Source of the DNA: Verrucomicrobiota bacterium
GTDB lineage: Bacteria > Verrucomicrobiota > Verrucomicrobiia > Opitutales > Opitutaceae
Assembly: GCA_030601755.1 (NCBI GenBank)
Contig: JAUWBF010000036.1
Span: forward strand, 1 to 35,507
Direction of reading: 5' to 3'
Length of the DNA stretch: 35,507 bases
Shown here: positions 6,567-34,838 of the stretch, in pieces
How the letters are laid out: each line of letters starts with the position of its first letter
Numbering within the stretch: the first letter of the stretch is position 1
Notes under the pieces: generated by a model
The model's input: the letters and a program-made list of their open reading frames with translations, nothing else
The model's database searches: none
What the model was told of the DNA's origin: nothing
Program-made: the position numbers and the translations under genes

Positions 6567-6589
6567 TTTGTCACTTATTAAGTGACAAA
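6567..6589. repeat. AT-rich palindrome, copy 1 of 3
   Basis: TGTCACTTATTAAGTGACA, extended here to 11-bp arms around one central base (TTTGTCACTTA/TAAGTGACAAA). The 19-bp core recurs exactly at 9225-9243 and 34768-34786. This copy is intergenic, between the feo operon and the gene ending at 6632. It is strikingly AT-rich for this genome. Function unknown. Confidence 0.85.
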
Positions 6590-8817: not shown

Positions 8818-8856
8818 GGGCGGTGTGACGGAAGAGATTTATCAGCAACGTGTTCG

Positions 8857-8887
8857 AAAAAGACTAACGTAGCTGGTTAGCCTTTTT
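8857..8887. repeat. Palindromic repeat of the GACTAAC type, copy 1
   Basis: AAAAAGACTAAC (8857-8868), loop GTAGCTG, then GTTAGCCTTTTT. Related copies are at 25615-25643 and 25726-25756. The single mismatch becomes a G-U wobble in a minus-strand RNA. Lying just after the ligase-family gene (stop at 8896) and ending in T residues, it could serve as that gene's intrinsic terminator despite a short stem. Confidence 0.75.
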
Positions 8888-8895
8888 CGAGAGGT

Positions 8896-9666
8896 TCAGC
8901 GGAAAGTGTTCCACTCGGGGGTGGTGTAGTGGTCGGCGAGGGTTTCCTGGGCGCCTTCGGGGAAATCGGGCCAGGGCGTGGGCACGGCCTCGGCGGCGAG
9001 TGTGGCGGCTAGGCGGGCGATGAAGGCGGCGGCAAAGGCGTCCCAGTCGAAGTCGCCCACGGCGGCGCGGTCGACCGAGCCTTGGCAGAGGAGGCCGTGC
9101 TTGGAGCGTTTCTGGGCGGCACCGGCGAGCTTGCGGCCGGTGGCGGGGTCGATGACGTCGTGCTTCTCGGCGCGGGTGAAACAGACGGTGGGACCGGCGG
9201 GCGCGCGGCCGGGCCGGCCGGGTTTGTCACTTATTAAGTGACAATCGGCGTCGGCGGGGCAGGTGGTCTGGAGGGTGGCGGGGCGGCCGAGGTCGCGGAG
9301 GGCGGCGGCGAGGTCGGCGTGGATGCGTTCGTAGCTGACGGGCGCGGGGGCGTCGGCGAGGTCGTGGCCGCGGGGAAGCACGAGGGCGTAGGTCCAGTCG
9401 TCGCGGTGGTCGACGACGCCGCCACCGGTGGGACGACGGCAGAGGGTGAGGTCGGCGGGGTCGGCGTCGGGGCCGAGCAACGCGGGCAACTGGTCGCGCA
9501 CGAAGGCGATCTTTTGCGAGTAACCGAAGGTGACCGAGGGGCGGTGCCAGTCGTAGTGGCGGAAGCGGGCGTTCTTCGCCGCTGGGTAGTGCTGCAGCAG
9601 GAGGAAGTCGGCGGCCATGTTGCCGGCGGCGGAGTCGGCGCGGTCGGGGAGGAGGTCGAGCTGCAT
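8896..9666 (-). CDS. Lipoate-protein ligase/octanoyltransferase family protein
   Basis: A 256-residue BPL/LPL-domain protein for attaching or transferring lipoyl or octanoyl groups. Visible motifs: SVTFGYSQ (44-51), CRRPTGGGVVDHRDDWTYAL (76-95, the RRxxGGGxVxH substrate loop) and GRKLAGAAQKRSKHGLLCQGS (177-197). The last contains the Lys (179) expected to contact the acyl group. Which of LplA, LipM or LipL activities applies cannot be decided from sequence alone. ATG 9666 is preferred, because a longer frame only translates a tandem repeat upstream. Residues 142-147 (CHLISD) are encoded by an exact copy of the 19-bp palindrome, in a loop rich in Pro, Gly and Arg that looks like an insertion. 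The frame is intact. Confidence 0.85.
   Translation of the reverse strand: MQLDLLPDRADSAAGNMAADFLLLQHYPAAKNARFRHYDWHRPSVTFGYSQKIAFVRDQLPALLGPDADPADLTLCRRPTGGGVVDHRDDWTYALVLPRGHDLADAPAPVSYERIHADLAAALRDLGRPATLQTTCPADADCHLISDKPGRPGRAPAGPTVCFTRAEKHDVIDPATGRKLAGAAQKRSKHGLLCQGSVDRAAVGDFDWDAFAAAFIARLAATLAAEAVPTPWPDFPEGAQETLADHYTTPEWNTFR
9223..9245. repeat. AT-rich palindrome, copy 2 of 3, inside a coding sequence
   Basis: The exact 19-bp core TGTCACTTATTAAGTGACA lies within the ligase-family gene and is translated there as CHLISD. On either strand, two of the three frames of this element contain a stop codon; it sits in the single open frame. This contrasts with the intergenic copies at 6567 and 34766. 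Confidence 0.9.
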
Positions 9667-34550: not shown

Positions 34551-34838
34551 GATGCGCCGGCGGCGGAAGCCGGCACCCTGATCGTTTCACGAAGCGGGTT
34601 TAACCGGCAATCGGCATAGCGGGGCGGAATTTGCCGAAGGCTGCGCACGCCTTGCGCGCGGCGCGCCTGGTGAAAGAGTAACCTATTGGGTTACTCTTTG
34701 TGCAGATTCGCGCGCGGTGCCTCTGGCCGTTGGGGGGGGCGGAGGCGGGTGCGCCGGGAGCGGCGATTGTCACTTATTAAGTGACAATCGGTTTGTGGCG
34801 CGGGCGTGTGTGTGGGGGCCGTGGTGGCGGGAGGGGCG
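34551..34838. repeat. Spacer upstream of pntAA with two AT-rich palindromes
   Basis: Holds no gene. AAAGAGTAACC (34673-34683) and GGTTACTCTTT (34689-34699) form perfect 11-bp arms with loop TATTG. The third exact copy of TGTCACTTATTAAGTGACA lies at 34768-34786 with ATT/AAT extensions (34766-34788). Either could be an operator for pntAA or simply a member of a mobile palindrome family. The -35/-10 elements were not resolved. Confidence 0.7.

Follow-up and report, generated by a model that had tools for sequence, protein, structure and literature searches.

REPINs are inverted REP doublets, according to the portion of PMC3116915 available to us. For GTAG REPs, the accessible sections of PMC3733652 report that Opitutus terrae has the highest number of in-gene copies, that these REPs occur within genes and as dimers, and that they can supply stop codons; the same sections describe recB of two Xanthomonas species, in which different REPs lie at about the same site. 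Both the in-gene REPs of O. terrae and the in-frame rickettsial elements are already published there.

The palindrome and its host gene

The window analyzed here is the whole 35,507-nucleotide stretch of an Opitutaceae contig (JAUWBF010000036.1), and contains on its minus strand a lipoate-ligase-family gene (8896-9666; PF21948, 39.9 bits, cut-off 27), which starts with ATG at 9666 and runs for 257 codons with a GC3 of 0.89. We find that the palindrome TGTCACTTATTAAGTGACA, with nine paired bases per side and one unpaired centre base, occurs exactly at 9225-9243, 6569-6587 and 34768-34786, with no match in 100 shuffles of the window. A preliminary description had given the in-gene element as 9223-9245; the 19-mer itself occupies 9225-9243 and the adjoining bases 9224/9244 do pair, whereas 9223/9245 do not. 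This copy spans codons 142-147 and encodes CHLISD in the gene's one open frame, with DKPGRPGRAPAGP next to it, as that description states, this Pro/Gly/Arg-rich stretch being at most a possible part of the element, and the palindrome carries a stop codon in four of six frames, two of the three on each strand. By sequence match and our own gene calls, the other two window copies are each flanked by two minus-strand genes, confirming that both are intergenic and lie between same-strand genes. The only TTA, ATA and AGT codons of the lipoate ligase gene fall within the palindrome. A G-rich outward tail of the in-gene copy, ATCGGCGTCGGCGGGG (9244-9259, plus strand), may belong to the element, and the motif ATCGG adjoins the copies of this genome on 18 of 110 sides, an enrichment over the 2.9 expected. 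A sister palindrome of the form AGTAACC-TAWTR-GGTTACT is present in the window as AGTAACCTATTGGGTTACT (34677-34695), 91 bases from the 34768 copy, and also elsewhere. A separate hairpin-like sequence, CGAAAAAGACTAACGTAGCTGGTTAGCCTTTTTCG (8855-8889), lies between an FMN-reductase-like gene and the lipoate ligase gene and is perhaps a terminator.

Residues 140-158 had been taken for an insert in a loop. Between chosen anchors the loop measures 34 residues here and 19-40 (median 24) in 29 homologues, four of which equal or exceed our 34 residues; the residues of the CHLISD region are absent from all 29 (the best 29 of 111 matching relatives). A loop of variable length is thus borne out, and a clean insert is not. 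An insertion into the lipoate ligase loop is likely, though its ends cannot be drawn, and it may have occurred directly at this site. A search of solved structures with the single lipoate ligase sequence returned none, and a profile search gave weak matches to the lipoate ligases 2ars and 3r07, too loose for loop placement.

Copy number, arm variation and paired copies

The genome (3,550,296 bases in 152 contigs) holds 55 exact copies of TGTCACTTATTAAGTGACA, all of which were inspected with their flanking sequence, and 76 sites with at most three mismatches, while the reversed-pattern control gives 0 in both searches, a large genome-wide excess; nine of the 55 are in genes. The exact core is found in eight of 140 relatives (19 copies in G089 and 1-3 in each of the remaining seven). 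Eighteen genomes reached via individual loci hold 57, 46, 43, 34, 22, 21, 6, 6 and 4 copies, with 1-3 in the other nine, and the reversed control is 0 in all 18, so that exact-core copy number ranges from 0 to 57 across related genomes. A scan of 84,980 species yields at least 107 stretches with the exact core, and among the matches listed all but two are from Verrucomicrobia; viral contigs gave no exact match to the 19-mer. The two exceptions are lone exact copies in Paenisporosarcina and Marmoricola records (L134:7540-7558 and L073:1192-1210), which may reflect chance, transfer or contamination.

A degenerate skeleton, GTNACYTAWTRRGTNAC, spans both the 19-mer and the sister palindrome. It matches 85 times in our genome and is present in 36 of 140 relatives, comprising 34 of 89 within Opitutaceae and two of 51 outside, each of these two with a single match; because the reversed skeleton gives up to one match per strand, in six genomes, one-match carriers may reflect chance. 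Genome G003, which we take to be O. terrae PB90-1, has 10-12 skeleton matches. In G020, three same-orientation skeleton copies about 270 bases apart (C1:2022720-2023277) suggest a tandem repeat, and another perfect palindrome, ATGTTCGTAATACGAACAT, occurs twice in the inspected stretches of our genome (L012:1760-1778 and L069:11967-11985), both times outside the skeleton.

Among the matches listed, the dominant arms differ by genome: G020, G063 and G017 carry mostly GTCACCTAWTRGGTGAC, G022 and G086 carry GTAACCTATTGGGTTAC, G039 carries GTAACCTAWTAGGTTAC, and G089 carries GTCACTTAWTAAGTGAC, the type of our genome. Just outside the 19-mer, the first three base positions are paired in 52, 42 and 33 of our 55 copies (shuffled means 50, 27 and 22), with no excess from the fourth base on, and in 106, 90 and 69 of 115 copies from other genomes (shuffled 73, 60 and 49), copies less than 30 bases from a locus end being excluded. 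These outer bases pair while varying between copies, showing that palindromy is preserved as the sequence changes. This bears on an alternative we judge unlikely, that the palindromes are sites for a dyad-symmetric DNA-binding protein, a chromosome organizer or regulator, which would emerge wherever they are tolerated and, within a genome, all shift together when the specificity of the protein changes. Exact conservation of 19 bp at 55 places and the symmetry of the arm changes both suit such sites, but variable outer bases that still pair do not, as a protein dimer needs no such pairing.

Many copies are arranged as inverted pairs. Our genome has 21 such pairs within 110 bp, most commonly at distances of 53 (n = 5) and 65-66 (n = 9), while G046 has ten distinct pairs at 42-44 and G039 has ten, eight of them at 54. 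The G046 pairs have outer flanks that differ and a common spacer that reads attgcYccctcggRRaaaaccgatt or the complement of that sequence, and the spacers of the ten pairs have a mean similarity score of 17.5, compared with 8.8 when shuffled (maximum 9.4). In nine of these ten pairs, each palindrome is, by eye, imperfect alone and a perfect inverted repeat of its partner, which suggests that the unit is the pair. Spacers in G039 are weakly alike (13.4 vs 11.3 shuffled, maximum 12.4). An undirected local alignment of all our own spacers does not rise above chance (11.5 vs 11.0 shuffled), and ungapped comparison within distance classes gives 117 vs 79 shuffled (maximum 95) for class 53 (n = 5) and 351 vs 237 (maximum 271) for spacers at exactly 66 (n = 7), scores that none of 300 shuffles reaches in either class. 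Pairs have been copied between separate places, clearly in G046 and, in more diverged form, significantly in two classes of our own genome, with a weak signal in G039. Our own spacers are 53% G+C, against 67% for the window, and two pairs folded as single-stranded DNA each give one long hairpin, much more stable than that of shuffled sequences (z of -6.3 for L031 and -7.9 for L332). Across three genomes (ours and those of L316-L335), paired-palindrome distances group at 42-44, 53-54 and 65-66, in steps of about 11-12 bases. Grouped distances would also fit sites for a DNA-binding protein, but spacers common to several pairs mark copies rather than sites.

We consider it probable that the palindrome forms one of the end-hairpins of a mobile element that is non-coding and REPIN-like, a reading that builds on what was observed: the copy number, the inverted pairs and the spacers they share, sublineages specific to individual genomes, and in-frame copies with foreign codons. 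The element would comprise two inverted palindromes around a spacer of mostly 25-49 bases, or a single palindrome; in single-stranded DNA the pair could form a single long hairpin, which a trans-acting enzyme may recognize so as to copy the element elsewhere, and single palindromes would be half-elements or decayed pairs. We also considered a CRISPR-like array and rejected it, as the copies in our genome are single or paired; a terminator was set aside too, most copies having, by eye, no adjoining T-run.

Copies inside genes and shared coding loops

By our own gene calls, 12 of the 55 copies touch genes; nine are internal, all in frame 0, and three provide the stop codon. The remainder lie between same-strand genes (29), between convergent (5) or divergent (1) genes, or in unclear contexts (8). 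Elsewhere, 21 of 118 copies touch genes: 16 are read in frame 0 and five lie at gene ends. Intergenic copies in these other genomes number 0.33 per kilobase in tandem, 0.34 in convergent and 0.19 in divergent intervals, at most a weak placement bias. We built the gene caller ourselves on the basis of codon usage; for 8 of our 55 copies and 34 of the other 118 it assigns no gene on one side. Internal copies are all in frame 0 because this is the only stop-free frame, and the pattern thus reflects survival.

The nine host genes of our genome, which by sequence reading include MetX-like, P-type-ATPase-like and methyltransferase-like genes (the profile check covered the lipoate ligase only), have 16 of their 17 TTA, all eight ATA and 12 of 17 AGT codons inside palindromes that make up just 72 of 3,687 codons. 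This concentration is strong evidence that the palindromes were implanted into host genes at the DNA level. In-frame copies with foreign codons occur in unrelated genes, the host proteins being predicted ones. The earlier proposal of a spreading palindrome tolerated inside proteins is supported by the outcome of the check that could have refuted it, as the residues are seen in none of the 29 lipoate ligase homologues and the genome-wide excess is large. An in-gene copy of the REPIN-like element would survive only in a stop-free frame and a tolerant loop, where it would add about 7 to 30 residues, either CHL[LI]SDK or a pair of motifs of this kind with the spacer translated between them.

Several genes hold copies at one position in different genera. 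In the loop of a methyltransferase (L023 in our genome), a 19-base palindrome with at least seven of nine pairs is present in 20 of 29 readable loci, a fraction somewhat inflated by four loci (L148, L267, L269 and L273) known through the palindrome itself; four further loci have six pairs and five have fewer, and random 60-base windows contain a palindrome of at least seven pairs in 687 of 5,800 cases. The set comprised 29 of 30 loci plus L148, with L296, a distant second copy in G089, omitted and L294 unreadable. The arms at this one site are TGTCACTTA in our genome, G141, G143 and G146, TGTCACGTA in G158, the pair TGTAACCTA in G039 and the pair AGTAACCTA in G142, TGTCATATA in G153 and GGTAGTCTA in G070. 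For a formyltransferase, 20 of 27 loci are readable at the corresponding loop and 8 of these 20 contain a palindrome, our own gene having none. Both loops are filled in six genomes, a small sample, and carry identical palindromes in four, a pattern that G142 and G027 do not fit. Mean palindrome identity is 0.90 within a genome, 0.78 at the same site across genomes and 0.81 between different sites in different genomes, as compared over 16 of the 20 methyltransferase and 8 formyltransferase loci with the centre base ignored and the better orientation used.

Such occupancy of the same coding loops across many genera is not predicted by simple random insertion. The loops of G146 (with the palindrome) and G147 (without), 90% identical in this region, differ along their whole length, with no simple insert, and an all-against-all comparison of loci revealed no clean empty site among the comparisons listed. 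We read the shared filled loops, from these alignments, as long-lived sites at which the element has probably either inserted again or been converted. Tentatively, the element may have a non-RAYT mobilizer of its own that rewrites copies in place, such that orthologous loops would keep a palindrome across genera, its arms would be converted to each genome's current type, and the dispersed 19-bp sites would evolve in concert. The use of the same coding loops across many genera would also suit the binding sites discussed above.

Compensatory arm changes at one methyltransferase site are what would be expected if the palindromes were conserved RNA hairpins that act in messages, in stability or as stops, and this would also fit the position of copies in other genomes nearer to the upstream gene end (median 82 bp) than to the next start (216 bp) in 43 tandem cases. 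We regard RNA hairpins as highly improbable, since the host genes are unrelated, palindrome-free orthologues are common, and one arm sequence is common to many copies per genome, which structure alone does not require; moreover, an Rfam search of six loci finds no family at the element, only a tRNA.

Mobilizer searches and comparison with known systems

Classical REPs or REPINs are moved by a RAYT in trans, and it is conceivable, if quite unlikely, that this is the case here, with the tag and the flanking RAYT copy lost or too diverged. Y1_Tnp genes are indeed found in our genome (three) and in all but one of 16 genomes with palindromes that were tested, and O. terrae, which belongs to the same family, is reported to have many GTAG REPs (PMC3733652); but Y1_Tnp genes are also found in 104 of 140 relatives, many of them palindrome-free, and are undetected in G046, G017 and G087, which carry 30, 13 and 9 copies (completeness 84, 97 and 93%). 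The skeleton GTNACYTAWTRRGTNAC is at none of 63 Y1_Tnp (RAYT-type) loci, searched with about 1.5 kb of flank or less at contig ends, though the positive control, GTAG-tagged hairpins, is present beside two of these 63. In those two, L223 (1157, 1805) and L234 (1314, 1906), GTAG-tagged GTCGGG..CCCGAC hairpins flank RAYT-type genes on both sides; these are ordinary REPtrons in relatives from the same clade. GTAG is absent within 14 bases of all 110 sides in our genome (0.5 expected) and occurs on 3 of 222 others (2.8 expected), and CGTC at the flanks is likewise not enriched (5 of 110 vs 7.0 expected; 4 of 222 vs 15.3 expected). By these tests the palindrome is neither a GTAG REP nor a CGTC REP. 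A neighboring gene as carrier was rejected, as the 203 genes found near copies in other genomes form no cluster with more than four members.

The 19-mer as text had no match in a literature search run mostly outside subscription journals, and a search for Opitut* returned no REP paper, which means little since PMC3733652 gives O. terrae only in abbreviated form. Given the 10-12 skeleton matches in G003, part of the superfamily may already be drawn among the O. terrae REPs of that paper. What seems new is a family-wide, tag-less superfamily with no RAYT flanks and with shared coding loops that carry genome-specific arms. A REPIN population of this kind, apparently RAYT-independent, matters in a field that holds RAYTs to be the mobilizers. 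Its implants in proteins, each recognizable by foreign codons, form a clear record left by nature, and loops with different palindromes in different genera offer a way to test whether very short repeats home or are converted.

Compared with REPINs as presented in the available part of PMC3116915, the element described here shares inverted palindromes, a spacer that varies while its length is set, dispersal in many copies, a long hairpin and singles beside doublets, but no RAYT gene was found beside its copies, and it has ends that are each a near-perfect palindrome and is frequently found in genes. GTAG REPs of Opitutus terrae, in the accessible text of PMC3733652, are similar in bacterial family, in-gene copies, dimers and stop-codon supply, and differ in the GTAG tag, which the copies here lack. 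The same text describes RPE-4 and RPE-6, rickettsial CGTC REPs, as in-frame palindromes in unrelated protein genes with no dedicated transposase known, and the present element resembles them in both respects. The likeness to rickettsial elements proposed at the outset thus holds for how the element works, as a protein-coding palindromic element, and not for the CGTC tag of RPE-4 and RPE-6, which is not enriched here, nor for the sequence, which is different.
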